NCBI GenBank assembly: GCA_016217545.1
Contig: JACRHT010000002.1
Coordinates: forward strand, 310,001-374,000
DNA from: Opitutia bacterium
GTDB lineage: Bacteria; Verrucomicrobiota; Verrucomicrobiia; Opitutales; Opitutaceae
DNA length: 64,000 nucleotides
Reading direction: 5' to 3'
Under the pieces are notes generated by a model. It was not told the DNA's origin. It saw only the letters and a program-made list of their open reading frames with translations, and made no database searches. How positions within the stretch are numbered: the first letter of the stretch is position 1; every line of letters starts with the position of its first letter. Shown one piece after another: positions 3,016 through 54,335 of the stretch. The translations under genes were made by a program, and so were the position numbers.

Positions 3016-5307
3016 ATGCCCCGCCTGACTTTGCCCCGCCTGCTGGTCGTCGCCTGCGCGCTCGCGTTCATCGCGAGCCTCCCCGTCCTCCGCGCCGCCG
3101 ATGCGGCCGCGTCCGGCAAGTCGCTCATCCACGCGACCGATCTGCTGAAGCTCAAGCAACTGGAGTCGCCCGCCCTGTCGCCCGACGGCAAATGGGTTGT
3201 CTACGTCGTGCGCTCGATCGAGCCAAAGCCCGAGGCGAAGGACGACTGGGTCTACCACACGAACCTCTGGCTCGTCGCGGTCGACGGCTCGAGCGCACCG
3301 CGCCAGCTCACCCGCGGCGGCAGCGCCTCCGCGCCCGCATGGAGCCCGCAGGGCGACCGCATCGCGTTCGTGCGCGCGGTCGACGGCAAGCCGCAGATTC
3401 ACGCTCTGCCCGTCGCCGGCGGCGAGGCGGCGCCGCTCACGAAGATCGAGACTGGCGCCGCCGCACCGAGATGGTCGCCCGACGGCTCGCGCATTTTGTT
3501 CACTTCGAGCCTGAGCTACGCCCAAGCACGCGAAGCCCTGGAAAAATCCGGCCAACCCGCCGCGCCGCGCTGGCCCGTCGAGAAACCCGGACGCAGCGCC
3601 AACGACACGAAGAACTACAACGCCGCCAAGAAGGGCCCGCCGGACGCGAAATCCTCTTCCGCCACGAAACCCTCGCACACCGCCAAACCCCACGCGGACG
3701 CCTCCGCCGTCGCTTTGGCGAAGGCGGACGGCTCGCTCCAAGATCGCCGCGAGTGGCTTGCCCAAAACGAAGCCGACGGCAACCCGCGCCCGCTCACGCG
3801 CCTGAACTTCCAGAGCGAGACGGACATCAATCCCGATCTCTCGATCGCGCACCTTTTCGTGCAGGAAGCACGTGAAGGCGCCGAGGCGAAGGACCTCACG
3901 CCCGGCTTCACCGGCTACGTGGGCGCCGAGTGGATGACCGACGGCAAAGCCATCGTCTGCGCCTCGCAGACCAATCCGGAGGAAAACCCCGACCGCTCAC
4001 TCACCGCGAGCCTCTACCTCGTCGACGCGGCCGGCGGCGGCGTGCGCGACTTCCTCAAGGTGCCCGACCACTCCGTCCTCAACCCGCAACCTTCGCCCGA
4101 CGGCCGATGGGTCGCGTTCACGATCAACCGCGGCCGCCTGTTCGGCTACGAACAAGCCGCCGTCGGCTTCGTGCCTGCCACCGGCGGCGCGCATCGCGTG
4201 CTCACGGCCAAACTCGATCGCAGCGCTGGCAACCTGAAATGGTCGCCTGACTGCCGGAGCATCTACTTTGTCGCCGCGAGCCGCGGCGGCTTCCCGCTCT
4301 ACCAAGTCGCCATCGACAGCACGGAAGCCCTGACCGTCACCGCGGAGAAAACTTTCGGCGTGCGCGACTACGATGTCGGCGTGCACGGCTACGTTCAGGT
4401 TCTCACCACGCCCGAAAATCCGTCGGAGCTCTACACCGGCACCAACGCGAAGCTCGGCTACCATGCCCTCACGACTCACAACTCCGACTGGATCGCCGAG
4501 CGCCAACTCTCCGCCGTCGAGGAACACGCGCTCACGAACGACAAAGGCCAGACCGTGCAGTATTGGACGCTGAAACCCACCGTGCTTGAGCGCGGAAAGA
4601 AGTATCCGCTGCTTCTCCAGATTCACGGCGGTCCGTCCGCGATGTGGGGTCCGGGCGAGGACAGCATGTGGTTCGAGTTCCAGTTCTTCGCGGCGCGCGG
4701 CTACGCGGTGGTGTTCGCGAATCCGCGCGGCTCGGGCGGCTACGGTCGCGATTTCCAAGCCGCGAACTACCGCGATTGGGGCAAAGGTCCCGCGAGCGAC
4801 GTGCTCGCGGCGGCGGCCGAGGCGGCGAAGCAACCGTTCGTGGATCCCGCGCGGCAGGTCGTCACCGGCGGTTCCTATGGCGGCTATCTCACCGCGTGGA
4901 TCGTCGGCCACGACCAGCGCTTCAAAGCGGCCGTCGCGCAACGCGGCGTCTACGACCTCCTCACGTTCTTCGGCGAAGGCAACGCCTGGCGCCTCGTTCC
5001 GCTCGCGTGGGGCGGCTATCCGTGGGAGCCGGGCCTGCGCGAAATCCTCACCGAGCAATCGCCGCTCACCTACGTCGCGGACATCAAGACGCCGCTGCTC
5101 ATCCAACACGGCGACAACGACCGCCGCACCGGCTTCGTGCAAAGCGAGATGCTTCTCCGCAGCCTCAAGCAGCTCGGCCGCGACGTGGAATCCGTCCGCT
5201 ACCCGCGCGCGACGCACGAGATGAGCCGCAGCGGCGAGCCGCGGCAGCGCCTCGACAGCCTCGTGCGCTACGAGGAATTTTTCCGCCGCTACCTCGGCGA
5301 GAACTGA
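3016..5307 (+). CDS. Exported S9 family (prolyl oligopeptidase-type) peptidase
   Basis: Serine peptidase of family S9, like dipeptidyl aminopeptidase or acylaminoacyl peptidase; 763 residues. A signal peptide spans about residues 1-27, ending LPVLRA before ADA, so the enzyme is probably periplasmic. The N-terminal part is a WD40-like beta-propeller with repeated SPDGxW-type motifs. The C-terminal alpha/beta hydrolase domain carries the triad S620 (GGSYGGY), D702 (HGDNDRR) and H734 (RATHEMS). A low-complexity Lys/Ala/Ser stretch at about residues 200-240 interrupts the propeller. I chose the ATG at 3016 because it places the signal peptide at the N-terminus; an in-frame ATG at 2974 is the alternative. 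It probably degrades peptides for nutrition. Confidence 0.9.
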   Translation: MPRLTLPRLLVVACALAFIASLPVLRAADAAASGKSLIHATDLLKLKQLESPALSPDGKWVVYVVRSIEPKPEAKDDWVYHTNLWLVAVDGSSAPRQLTRGGSASAPAWSPQGDRIAFVRAVDGKPQIHALPVAGGEAAPLTKIETGAAAPRWSPDGSRILFTSSLSYAQAREALEKSGQPAAPRWPVEKPGRSANDTKNYNAAKKGPPDAKSSSATKPSHTAKPHADASAVALAKADGSLQDRREWLAQNEADGNPRPLTRLNFQSETDINPDLSIAHLFVQEAREGAEAKDLTPGFTGYVGAEWMTDGKAIVCASQTNPEENPDRSLTASLYLVDAAGGGVRDFLKVPDHSVLNPQPSPDGRWVAFTINRGRLFGYEQAAVGFVPATGGAHRVLTAKLDRSAGNLKWSPDCRSIYFVAASRGGFPLYQVAIDSTEALTVTAEKTFGVRDYDVGVHGYVQVLTTPENPSELYTGTNAKLGYHALTTHNSDWIAERQLSAVEEHALTNDKGQTVQYWTLKPTVLERGKKYPLLLQIHGGPSAMWGPGEDSMWFEFQFFAARGYAVVFANPRGSGGYGRDFQAANYRDWGKGPASDVLAAAAEAAKQPFVDPARQVVTGGSYGGYLTAWIVGHDQRFKAAVAQRGVYDLLTFFGEGNAWRLVPLAWGGYPWEPGLREILTEQSPLTYVADIKTPLLIQHGDNDRRTGFVQSEMLLRSLKQLGRDVESVRYPRATHEMSRSGEPRQRLDSLVRYEEFFRRYLGEN

Positions 5308-12863: not shown

Positions 12864-12905
12864 GACGCGCGCGACACGTCCGCACCGCCTCGTAGAGCCT
12901 TTTCT

Positions 12906-12982
12906 GTAGCCGGGCTCGCTGAGCCCGGTCGGTGCTTCCTCCCTCGGGAAAGTTCCTTTCCGGGGTCGGCGACCCCGGCTAC
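12906..12982. repeat. REPIN family A, copy 2
   Basis: Near-identical to 1198-1274: GTAG plus CCGGGCTCgctGAGCCCGG at 12906-12928, mirrored by a second hairpin at 12960-12982. The spacer and the flanking TTTTCT and ATTATTTTTGAAA are shared with copy 1. It lies between the convergent M13 peptidase and alpha/beta-hydrolase genes. Confidence 0.87.
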
Positions 12983-13035
12983 ATTATTTTTGAAAGTGCT
13001 CTAGCGGGGACACCAGCGACCAGACATGGCTTGTG

Positions 13036-13107
13036 GTAGGGCGGGACCGCTGGGCCCGCCGCGTGGTCGGCATCACGTTCCCGGCGGGCCCAGCGGTCCC
13101 GCCCTAC
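13036..13107. repeat. REPIN family C, copy 1
   Basis: An inverted pair of a 25-base unit made of GTAG and hairpin arms GGCGGG/CCCGCC (13036-13060 and 13083-13107). The same unit recurs at 43712-43783 with a different spacer. The right end is one base from the stop codon of the next minus-strand gene, so it may also serve as a transcript-end hairpin. Confidence 0.87.
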
Positions 13108-13108
13108 C

Positions 13109-21219: not shown

Positions 21220-23632
<2,413 letters not shown>

Positions 23633-43627: not shown

Positions 43628-43711
43628 CGATCCCGGCAAAGTAGCGCCGGATTCCGCGACTAACGCCGCGCAACGCCGCTTCGAAACTCATCCGCAGCAA
43701 CGCCACGTGCG

Positions 43712-43783
43712 GTAGGGCGGGACCGCTGGGCCCGCCGGGAACATGATACCACCCTCGCGGCGGGCCCAGCGGTCCCGCCCTAC
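43712..43783. repeat. REPIN family C, copy 2
   Basis: The same 25-base GTAG unit as at 13036, at 43712-43736 and inverted at 43759-43783, with a different 22-base spacer. It lies between the convergent amidohydrolase and membrane-protein genes. Confidence 0.87.
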
Positions 43784-43811
43784 CCTTCGCTCCCGCGCTG
43801 ACCTTGCTCCC

Positions 43812-51281: not shown

Positions 51282-51404
51282 AAACACCACCCCGGAGCGG
51301 CGTTTCCGCGCTCCGATTTCCGCCCTCCGTCAAGGGGCCCGATCCTCCGTTCTGCCCCCTTGACTCCCCTCTGGCCTGGAGTAGCGTCCGGCGCTTTTCC
51401 CAGA

Positions 51405-54335
51405 ATGGCCCAAGAACTTAAAGACACACTCCTGCTTCCGAAGACGGATTTCCCCATGCGGGCAAATCTCGTGTCCCGCGAGCCGGAGCGAATTAAGCAC
51501 TGGGACAAACTCGGCCTCTACGCCCGCATCCAGGCCAAGCGCGCCGACTCCGGGAAGAAATACGTCCTGCACGACGGCCCGCCCTTCACCAACGGCGACG
51601 TCCACATCGGCACCGCGCTGAACAAGTCGCTCAAGGATTTCGTCAACCGCTACAAGTCCATGCGCGGCTTCGCGACGCCCTACGTGCCGGGCTGGGACTG
51701 CCACGGCCTGCCGATCGAGCAGAAGGTCAGCCGCGAAATCCAGGAGCAGAAGCTCAACCTCACCACCGCCGAGCTGCGCGCGAAGTGCGACGCGTTTTCC
51801 GAGAGCTGGATCGCGAAGCAGACCGCGCAATTCAAGCGCGTCGGCGTCCTCGCCGACTGGGCCAGCCAATACAAGACGAAGGCGCCCGCCTACGAGGCCG
51901 ACATCCTGCGCACGTTCGCCGCGTTCGTGGAGCAAGGCCTCGTCTACCGCTCCAAGAAACCCGTTTACTGGTCGATCCCCTTCGAGACCGCGCTCGCCGA
52001 AGCCGAGATCGAATACAAGGACCACGTCTCTCCCTCGATCTGGGTGAAGTTCGCCGTCCCCGCCGATCAGGCCGCGAAGTTCGGCCTGCCGACCGACAAG
52101 CCACTCTTCGTCGTCATCTGGACGACCACGCCGTGGACGATTCCCGCCAATCTCGCGATCGCGGTGCACCCGGAGGTCGATTACGTCGTCGCCGACCTCG
52201 GCGCAGAGCGCATCGTCGTCGCCGAGGCGTTGCTCGGCTCCGTCGCGACTGCGGCCAAGCTCGAAGCTCAGCCGACGGTCATGAAGACCGTCAAGGGCGC
52301 GACGCTCGAGCATCTCGCGCCGCGCCACCCGTTCATCGACCGCGCTTCGCCTGTCGTGCTCGCCGACTACGTCACGACCGACAGCGGCACCGGCTGCGTG
52401 CACACCGCGCCCGGCCACGGCGCGGAGGACTATCTCACCGGCCTCAAATACAAGCTCGAGATCTACTGCCCCGTCGGCGACGACGGCCGCTATGTCGACG
52501 ACGGCAAGGTGCCCGCCGACATGGTTGGCCTCACGACGCTCGAGAGCGTCGAAGACCTCGCCGCCAAGAAGACCTCGCCCGCCAACATCGCCGTGTTGAA
52601 GAAACTCGACGCTGCCGGCGCGCTCCTCGCGAAGCAGCGTTACGAGCACCAATACCCGCATTGCTGGCGCTCGAAGACCCCGATCGTTTTCCGCGCCGTC
52701 GACCAGTGGTTCGTCTCGCTCGATGTTGCCCGCAGTGCCCCTGTAGCCGGGGTCGCCGACCCCGGCCCGGCCTCAGCGAGGCCGGCTACATCAACCCCGC
52801 GTCAGGTCGCGCTCGGCGAAATCACGAAGATCGCCGAGGCTCAGGGCTGGATTCCCGCCTGGGGCGAAGCGCGCATTCGCGGCGCCGTCGAATCGCGTCC
52901 GGATTGGTGCATCAGCCGCCAGCGCTCGTGGGGCGTCCCGATCATCGCCTTCTACGGCCCGAACAAACAGGCCTACATCGACGGCGGCGTCATCCGCGCC
53001 GTCGCCGACAAGATCGCCACCCAAGGCACCAACTTCTGGTATGCCGCCCCCGCCGCCGAGATCCTCGCCGGCGTGACGCTGCCCGCCGGCTGGCCGAGCG
53101 CCGACCAACTCACCTGCGGTCGCGACACCCTCGACGTCTGGATCGACTCCGGCTCGTCGCACGTGTTCATGCGCGATTTCATGGCGCGCACGTTCGGCCA
53201 GGACCGCCAAGCCACGCCCGCCGACCTCTACCTCGAAGGCAGCGACCAGCACCGCGGTTGGTTCCAATCGTCACTCTGGACGAGCGTCATCGCCTACGGC
53301 GCCGCGCCCTACAAGGCCGTCCTGACGCACGGCTTCATCGTCGACAAGAACCGCCAGAAAATCTCCAAGAGTTCGACCTACCAGAAGCCGCAGACCGCCG
53401 AAGCCTACATCAAGGACCACGGCGCGGACGTCATCCGCCTCTGGATCGCCTCGCAGGATTTTCGCGACGACATCCCGGTCGACGAGGAAATCCTCAAGCA
53501 CGTCGGCGAGGCGTATCGCCTTTTCCGCAATACCTTCCGCTTCCAGCTCTCGAACCTGTTCGATTTCGACGCGACGCAGCACGCCGTGCCCTACGCGCAA
53601 CTCGACGCGCTCGACCGCTGGGCGTTGCACCAGACCGCGAAGCTCCTCGCCGAGTGCACCGCCGCCTACGACGCGTTCGAGTTCCACCGCGTCTACCAGC
53701 TCTGCAACCAGTTCTGCTCGGTCACGCTGTCCGCGACCTATCACGACATCCTGAAGGACCGCCTCTACACGCTCGGCGCCAAGCACCCGCTCCGCCGCTC
53801 GTCGCAGACCGCGATCCACGCGATCTTCACCACGCTCGTGAAGATCCTCGCGCCCGTCCTGACCTTCACCGCCGACGAAGCCTGGAGCTTCGCCACCACC
53901 GGCAAGGAATACGCCGACGACTCGATCCATTTGCAGGACTGGCCGACCGCCCCCGCCGAGTGGACCGACGCCGCGCTCGACGCCGACTTCGCCACGCTGC
54001 TCAAGCTCCGCGCCAAGGTCACCGAGTCGCTCGAGCCGCTCCGCCAAGCCGGCAACATCGGCAAATCGCTCGATGCGACGCTCAGCTTCTCCGGCGCGCC
54101 AGACACCGCGGAGATGGTTGCACTCGCGAAGCATCACGGTTTCCTGCCGGAGTTCTTCATCGTTTCGTCCGTCGCCTTGGAACCAAAGCTCGGCGCGGCG
54201 CTCGAAATCAAATCGCTCAACGCCCGCGAAGCCGGCCTCCACCGCTGCCCGCGCTGCTGGCGCTGGGTCCCGGCCCTCGCCCATTCCCCGCACGGAGAGA
54301 TTTGCCCTCGGTGCGCCGACGCACTTAATTCCTGA
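51405..54335 (+). CDS. ileS: Isoleucyl-tRNA synthetase carrying an in-frame REPIN
   Basis: Class I aminoacyl-tRNA synthetase charging tRNA-Ile; 976 residues. The HIGH-type motif is NGDVHIGTALN (H67), KMSKS is KISKS (652-656), and the C-terminal zinc finger is CPRCWRW ... CPRCAD. Residues 447-462 (VAGVADPGPASARPAT) are encoded by the 48-base REPIN at 52743-52790, between WFVSLDVARS and the conserved GWIPAWGEARI. The frame is intact on both sides. The start is ATG 51405; a TTG 45 bases earlier is unlikely. It is followed 14 bases later by a DksA-like gene and then lspA, so the order is ileS-dksA-like-lspA. Confidence 0.96.
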   Translation: MAQELKDTLLLPKTDFPMRANLVSREPERIKHWDKLGLYARIQAKRADSGKKYVLHDGPPFTNGDVHIGTALNKSLKDFVNRYKSMRGFATPYVPGWDCHGLPIEQKVSREIQEQKLNLTTAELRAKCDAFSESWIAKQTAQFKRVGVLADWASQYKTKAPAYEADILRTFAAFVEQGLVYRSKKPVYWSIPFETALAEAEIEYKDHVSPSIWVKFAVPADQAAKFGLPTDKPLFVVIWTTTPWTIPANLAIAVHPEVDYVVADLGAERIVVAEALLGSVATAAKLEAQPTVMKTVKGATLEHLAPRHPFIDRASPVVLADYVTTDSGTGCVHTAPGHGAEDYLTGLKYKLEIYCPVGDDGRYVDDGKVPADMVGLTTLESVEDLAAKKTSPANIAVLKKLDAAGALLAKQRYEHQYPHCWRSKTPIVFRAVDQWFVSLDVARSAPVAGVADPGPASARPATSTPRQVALGEITKIAEAQGWIPAWGEARIRGAVESRPDWCISRQRSWGVPIIAFYGPNKQAYIDGGVIRAVADKIATQGTNFWYAAPAAEILAGVTLPAGWPSADQLTCGRDTLDVWIDSGSSHVFMRDFMARTFGQDRQATPADLYLEGSDQHRGWFQSSLWTSVIAYGAAPYKAVLTHGFIVDKNRQKISKSSTYQKPQTAEAYIKDHGADVIRLWIASQDFRDDIPVDEEILKHVGEAYRLFRNTFRFQLSNLFDFDATQHAVPYAQLDALDRWALHQTAKLLAECTAAYDAFEFHRVYQLCNQFCSVTLSATYHDILKDRLYTLGAKHPLRRSSQTAIHAIFTTLVKILAPVLTFTADEAWSFATTGKEYADDSIHLQDWPTAPAEWTDAALDADFATLLKLRAKVTESLEPLRQAGNIGKSLDATLSFSGAPDTAEMVALAKHHGFLPEFFIVSSVALEPKLGAALEIKSLNAREAGLHRCPRCWRWVPALAHSPHGEICPRCADALNS
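52743..52790. repeat. In-frame REPIN inside ileS
   Basis: 48 bases, exactly 16 codons. The left hairpin is GTAG plus CCGGGGTCgccGACCCCGG (52743-52765), the same as the right half of REPIN A. The right hairpin, read on the minus strand, is GTAG plus CCGGCCTCgctGAGGCCGG (52767-52789). The two hairpins abut with a single base between them, unlike the intergenic copies which have spacers of about 20-40 bases. Confidence 0.9.

Follow-up and report, generated by a model that had tools for sequence, protein, structure and literature searches.

The gene for isoleucyl-tRNA synthetase (ileS) of the Opitutia bacterium examined here carries a complete GTAG-tagged REP doublet (REPIN) that is read as amino acids within the open frame of the enzyme. 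The analysis covered a stretch of 64,000 nucleotides (the window), the genome from which it was taken (G000), 12 congeners and a set of named genomes. Since the insert lies in frame, is absent from the relatives compared and is repeated in the genome, and since a REP-associated tyrosine transposase (RAYT) gene accompanied by REPs of the same family is present, the segment is interpreted from sequence comparison as a REPIN that was probably copied by the RAYT into ileS after the split from the sampled congeners, passed through a filter of selection and was kept as an inert flexible linker of 21 residues.

A REP doublet within the ileS frame

The ileS gene occupies positions 51405 to 54335 of the forward strand. 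The ATG at 51405 was chosen as the start codon; a TTG further upstream, at 51360, is also in frame. Profile matching and a genome search found no other full-length isoleucyl-tRNA synthetase gene, and the five other matches obtained in the same genome when a second ileS was sought were partial and 27-35% identical. The segment at 52743-52790 consists of GTAG, two hairpins and CTAC(A), and is translated as VAGVADPGPASARPAT within the open IleS frame. Folding of 52736-52800 as single-stranded DNA yielded two abutting hairpins (MFE -21.3 kcal/mol, z -3.83), a result equalled by none of 200 shuffled sequences. Hairpin 1, a REP, was folded from 52746-52766, with its GTAG at 52743-52746; hairpin 2, an inverted REP, directly abuts it at 52767-52785, with CTAC at 52786-52789 (both on the forward strand). 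Sequence, frame and folding thus agree with the preliminary description of two GTAG-ended hairpins inside ileS. That description had delimited the element as 48 nt at 52743-52790; its in-frame hairpins were recovered, but the compact REPIN core is better given as the 49-nt T-GTAG...CTAC-A at 52742-52790 (forward strand), read as a T followed by codons (T-GTA GCC...ACA).

The TIGR00392 (ileS) profile spans the insert in one continuous match of 816 bits (cut-off 621), in keeping with the earlier statement that the synthetase is intact on either side. The copy has the structure of a REPIN, with two REPs in inverted orientation, each bearing GTAG at its outer end, and palindromic cores that fold as hairpins, but it departs from the extragenic location of such elements. 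It corresponds to an intragenic GTAG REP dimer, the whole doublet lying within an open reading frame (ORF) and being read as amino acids.

The insert is absent from related synthetases

The ileS site is covered by a contig in all of the 12 congeners searched except one (G002), and the insert is absent from each of these 11 genomes. Where the present genome reads VARSAP-VAGVADPGPASARPAT-STP, nine of the congeners have KAGH and the other two HAGH or KSGA; SLDKAGHRQ or close variants stand in place of SLDVARSAPVAGVADPGPASARPATSTPRQ, a net difference of 21 amino acids or 63 nt. The net insert was placed by alignment at 52737-52799 of the forward strand, with ends that are ambiguous by a few codons. 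An insert of exactly 16 codons, as originally proposed, therefore falls short, and about 15 nt were gained beside the 48 nt. As the net insert of 63 nt exceeds the 49-nt element, the bare element was not cleanly inserted.

The insert was likewise lacking in all 30 other IleS sequences aligned (8 from the genus, 22 from the order), and a search of these for the same residues in the absence of the nucleotide palindromes found none. A motif search of 42 ileS loci read the site in 23, two of which represent the present genome, and the other 21 were without the insert; 14 of the 19 loci that gave no match to the search motif are covered by the 30-sequence alignment and five are outside it. When IleS was aligned with solved IleS structures, the match was broken at the insert site in the three alignments listed. 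An AlphaFold2 model based on 31 sequences reached a mean pLDDT of 87.5, with residues 443-460 of 976 below 50, and replaced an earlier model based on 9 sequences (mean pLDDT 42.2). This low-confidence stretch lies between a strand (430-437) and a helix (465-479), and according to the model the insert is probably a floppy loop. The view of a REPIN in an essential gene that is tolerated as a loop, much like Rickettsia palindromic elements, is supported by these findings.

Compact and long copies of the element in the genome

The ileS element is repeated in its own genome far beyond chance, with at least 46 matches at E<=0.001, self and some second strands included. A covariance model was built from 28 copies, mostly compact, which had first been found by likeness to the ileS copy. 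The model recovers the long form as well and gave at least 110 matches on both strands, which collapsed to at least 57 places across the genome (family 1). This census may be incomplete, as 150 of 12,397 first-look candidates were scored. Two family 1 REPINs of 79 nt, neither of them gene-internal, lie on the reverse strand of the window at 1197-1275 and 12905-12983. The likeness of the ileS hairpins to those of intergenic spacers, noted in the preliminary description, holds for the hairpins themselves, but the copies at these two places are of the long form, with a spacer of about 30 nt.

Length and location were found to go together. Among the 28 compact copies found (45-55 nt), 26 were gene-internal, one was C-terminal and one fell under the codon score in a 1221-aa PDH E1-E2 ORF; all 28 lie in ORFs, 24 in all. 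None of the 19 long copies found (>=73 nt) was gene-internal, and one lay at an ORF start. Seven copies measured 56-72 nt (three internal, one at an ORF start, three not) and three were shorter than 45 nt (one internal). The difference between compact and long copies in gene-internal location (26/28 versus 0/19) is significant (Fisher p = 3e-11). Random 49-nt positions were gene-internal in 1247 of 2000 cases in the window and in 1953 of 3000 cases in REPIN-bearing loci (62-65%), and random 79-nt positions in 1165 of 2000; compact copies are, if anything, over-represented in genes (26 of 28, p = 7.5e-4).

The search for other coding REPINs thus placed ileS among 24 ORFs with a compact copy, which are named here by their best profile family only, several scoring under the model cut-off and being '-like' at best. 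PurL, a CobW-like GTPase, a PDH E1-E2 fusion and RecD2 carry two compact copies each. Single copies are found in lipoamide dehydrogenase, carboxyl transferase, pyruvate dehydrogenase E2, 2-oxoglutarate dehydrogenase E2, monomeric isocitrate dehydrogenase, an RND permease-like protein, IleS, an ABC-F ATPase, PurK, NAD(P)H-hydrate dehydratase, MurF, NuoC-like, NuoG-like and NuoM proteins, an RlmB-like methyltransferase, an alpha-galacturonidase-like protein, a sodium:solute symporter, a UvrA-like protein and two helicases. When lipoamide dehydrogenase, PurK and MurF were aligned with solved structures, the element fell in gaps of 9 to 14 residues.

A similar split was seen in the congener G002, which has at least 38 family 1 places: at least 27 long copies, none of the 27 listed being internal, one internal 67-nt copy and at least 10 compact copies. 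Ten compact copies among those listed comprised three that were internal by the strict score, two C-terminal, one at an ORF start and four under the score; three of these four lie in ORFs of 428-594 aa, and the fourth belongs to a 224-aa ORF close to the edge of a contig. Among the copies listed, G002 shares with G000 the sites of five of its 10 compact copies and that of the 67-nt copy, against one of 27 long copies (p = 0.001 with the 67-nt site, 0.003 without it).

When named genomes were scanned for the exact compact pattern, 54 matches were obtained on 53 stretches; of these stretches, 51 belong to Opitutaceae, other Opitutae or Verrucomicrobia and the other two to Lentisphaerae and Kiritimatiellaeota. 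The matches partly overlap the data from the congeners G002, G003 and G005. The strict score placed 16 of them inside genes, three at C-termini and one at an ORF start and did not score 34 as coding, whereas a looser score gave 25 coding and 29 not; linkers rich in A/P can escape the strict score. A universal rule that compact copies are coding was considered and rejected, as it is true of the places found in G000 and largely of G002 but is contradicted by the 34 of 54. Family-wide, the compact form is therefore not confined to genes.

Codon phase and encoded peptide

Every copy that the strict score classed as internal is read in the same phase (T-GTA GCC..., the T standing before codon GTA): 30 of 30 in G000, 4 of 4 in G002 and 16 of 16 among the matches in named genomes. 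This GTA phase is used whichever strand carries the gene, and mostly yields VAGVxDPGPxSxxPAT or VAGLxEPGPGSxTPAT. The looser coding test assigned two of 25 copies (L196 and L231, both doubtful) to another phase. The bias is partly mechanical, since one phase is closed by TAG and a second often by TGA; 19 of the 30 internal copies in G000 have a single open coding-strand phase, and in the other 11 a second one is available but unused. Over 46 copies, some of which belong to two samples, the compact peptide is composed of 76% P/G/A/S/T and 2% K/R; K/R make up 15% of what the long form encodes in the GTA phase. At least 16 of the 19 long copies in G000 can be read through in this phase, and long copies agree in length with compact ones modulo three in 15 of 19 cases in G000 and 13 of the 27 listed in G002. 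Frame alone cannot, on these figures, explain the absence of the long form from genes, and its basic spacer peptide may be what keeps it out.

The same figures bear on a different origin of the compact form, in which a 79-nt REPIN would insert into a gene and the in-frame loss of its 27-30 nt basic-peptide spacer would then be selected. Subtraction of the commonest compact lengths (49 and 52 nt) from the commonest long length (79 nt) does leave 30 or 27 nt, the 52-nt copies retain what resembles the final part of the long spacer, and no long copy found is gene-internal (0/19 in G000, 0/27 listed in G002), although the GTA phase is open through most of those in G000. The long form also has the higher K/R content in that phase. 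The 34 named-genome compact copies that were not scored as coding suggest, however, that the compact form is mobile as such; 16 gene-internal copies in G000 are exactly 49 nt long, which independent deletions would not readily give, and the hairpin 2 variants GGCC and GGTC of compact copies are absent among the long copies listed. Trimming of long copies inside genes is considered possible but doubtful.

Conservation at shared sites

Copies of family 1 were also found in other genomes, where they occupy the corresponding loops of isocitrate dehydrogenase, RecD2, 2-oxoglutarate E2, PDH E2 and NuoC. At sites shared between genomes, the element was more alike than both of its flanks in 20 of 22 pairs, a sample biased to well-kept elements because 13 of the pairs involve copies from the exact-pattern search. 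Twelve of the 13 pairs with other genomes had elements identical at 42-48 of 49 positions and flanks of 52-89%, and the remaining pair had 37 of 49 with flanks of 49 and 73%. The element was the more conserved part in seven of the nine pairs within the genus, the exceptions being an ABC-F pair (53/67 versus flanks of 84 and 79%) and the RecD2 site 2 pair (44/49 versus 90 and 90%). Such a pattern is not expected from the neutral decay of an old insert, but would follow from recent or repeated insertion or from selection on the element. The E2 and E3 copies are present in G000 and G002 and absent in G007 and G005, and the PurL of G007 and G005 is closer to that of G000 than is the PurL of G002 (92 and 89% versus 81%). 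Repeated insertion, or loss and replacement, would both fit the distribution of the E2 and E3 copies.

Selection on the element would be expected if the insert had acquired a role in IleS or in its mRNA, such as that of a translational pause hairpin or a binding loop. The palindromes are kept in coding copies and the 20 of 22 pairs, which come from other genes, point in this direction, though with the sampling bias described. The carriers are nevertheless unrelated proteins, the insert in ileS occurs in this species alone among those compared, and the loop is modelled with pLDDT below 50, so that recruitment appears improbable and the added residues are better regarded as a putative inert linker.

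Reuse of loops by other GTAG hairpins

Site 1 of RecD2 holds family 1 in G000, a different GTAG...CTAC hairpin of 72 nt in G005 and yet another, of 58 nt, in G009. Site 2 holds family 1 in G000 and G003 and a 64-nt copy of G009's own family in G009. PurL site 2 has a 62-nt GTAG...CTAC hairpin in G005, and the insert at PurL site 1 of G005 matches an arm of the 72-nt element of that genome. The G005 RecD2 repeat, ended by GTAG...CTAC, lies at 1374-1447 of locus L183 and is read in frame as GRVVPDEP...RLTEDGSPYP. A copy related to it, with TTAG at its left end, was observed in the PurL site 1 loop of L150, and one arm of the repeat also matches L048 (a Y1_Tnp locus of G000) and L153 (G004). In L185 (G009), one GTAG...CTAC family occurs twice in RecD2, at 925-983 and 1671-1736, which are the two family 1 sites of G000. 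In other congeners these loops are short or hold low-complexity inserts such as STLNSQL. Short repeats of the AACTCTC type coding for STLNSQL were observed in L075 at about 3884-3920 (G000 PurL, directly after the REPIN) and also in loops of G005 and G009.

We give even odds to the proposition that a few loops serve as a shared landing ground, where unrelated GTAG families independently insert in frame at the same loops of sister species and other Opitutaceae. The form surviving there would be the compact, hairpin-to-hairpin one, which encodes a flexible P/G/A/S/T peptide in one phase from either strand.

RAYT gene and other repeats

The genome contains a RAYT gene of 153 aa (L041, 1444-1905), which scores 113.9 bits with NF047646 (cut-off 80). 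A 62-nt REP doublet precedes the gene, and its stop codon is immediately followed by a REP palindrome of 29 nt. The gene is thus flanked on both sides by family 1 REPs, as in REPIN systems. Ten Y1_Tnp matches were obtained in G000, and by their coordinates only one, on contig C4, lies directly beside family 1 REPs among the places found. The bases directly 5' of GTAG were CT in 20 of the 30 copies listed (the ileS copy included), TT in 8 and AT in 2. The E. coli transposase TnpA-REP is described in PMC8266576 as cleaving at a CT that adjoins REPs.

The window holds another GTAG-tagged REPIN family (GTAGGGCGGGACCGCTGGGCCCGCC...), at 13035-13108 and 43709-43784. This second family (GTAGGGCGGGACC...) is gene-internal at 4 of the 40 places found in G000, which shows that entry into genes is not unique to family 1. 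The window also holds eight direct repeats with a spacing of 99 nt at 21321-22067; the protein encoded by them is presumably an ankyrin-repeat protein.

Relation to known systems and proposed origin

Opitutus terrae belongs to the same bacterial family as the source genome. The preliminary description knew of no REPIN inside an essential gene, but intragenic GTAG REPs are already documented by Di Nocera et al. 2013 (PMC3733652) and this kind of insertion is thus known. The available text of that report finds them most numerous in O. terrae, names uvrA, DNA ligase and RNA helicases in that species as well as tRNA synthetase genes in others, and argues that the insertions may lie in flexible linkers or loops. 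The present copies resemble that description in being GTAG palindromes, often dimers, inside housekeeping and repair ORFs, with a UvrA-like ORF and two helicase ORFs among those hit. Likeness to the O. terrae repeats themselves is by description, and many records of Opitutaceae and Opitutae contain the compact motif. In contrast to the findings here, the available text of PMC3733652 does not name ileS and describes no single codon phase and no compact-versus-long spacing; different REPs at one site are given there only for recB of two Xanthomonas, at about the same site. Beyond this report, a search of the open-access literature found nothing on intragenic REPs in Opitutus or on in-frame repeats in Opitutaceae. 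As far as searched, and judged against the available text of PMC3733652, the ileS case, the split between spacing and location and the reuse of loops are new, though O. terrae may have an ileS case as well. The habit of carrying REPs in genes is one that has been reported in a related bacterium and little studied.

The inverted REP doublet and the RAYT gene with REPs beside it are shared with the REPIN/RAYT systems of Bertels and Rainey 2011 (PMC3116915). Those of SBW25 are, in the available part of that paper, mainly extragenic (14 of 1,067 occurrences of the commonest 16-mers overlap genes), unlike the compact form here, which is found in genes. Small palindromic repeats lying in frame in conserved genes and apparently tolerated are known as Rickettsia palindromic elements; these are described as 105-146 bp long and Rickettsia-specific, with no link to a RAYT given in the available text of PMC2229807, and were compared by description only.

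The favoured origin of the insert is the entry of a non-autonomous REP doublet of the GTAG superfamily into ileS after the species had split from the sampled congeners. The RAYT would have copied the element into the gene. Selection would then have kept only insertions that total a multiple of three, that sit in a surface loop and that are read in the GTA phase, which is usually stop-free on both strands and gives a P/G/A/S/T-rich peptide with few charges. The 21 added residues would form an inert flexible linker rather than a functional part of IleS. An old IleS feature lost in relatives is extremely unlikely, given its absence from all 30 other IleS aligned from genus and order and from all 11 congeners, and given the match of the insert DNA to the REPIN consensus of the genome. 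Similarly negligible is an assembly error, a pseudogene or a second non-essential copy, as the genome, though in 17 contigs, has one full-length ileS with a full profile match and shows the same pattern in 24 ORFs.

The ileS insert is a clear example of an essential enzyme that gained a segment from mobile DNA, with the empty site seen in 11 congeners. The 28 compact copies in 24 ORFs are numerous enough for tests of how protein sequence arises from mobile elements, and with the split between compact copies in genes and long copies that are not internal, seen in two species, the part played by selection can be tested apart from that of the RAYT. For annotation, peptides of the VAGVADPG... and VAGLxEPG... 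types should be taken as repeat-derived and not as conserved motifs. If the loops do act as a shared landing ground, REPINs would amount to linker-insertion screening in nature and would steadily supply new protein loops.
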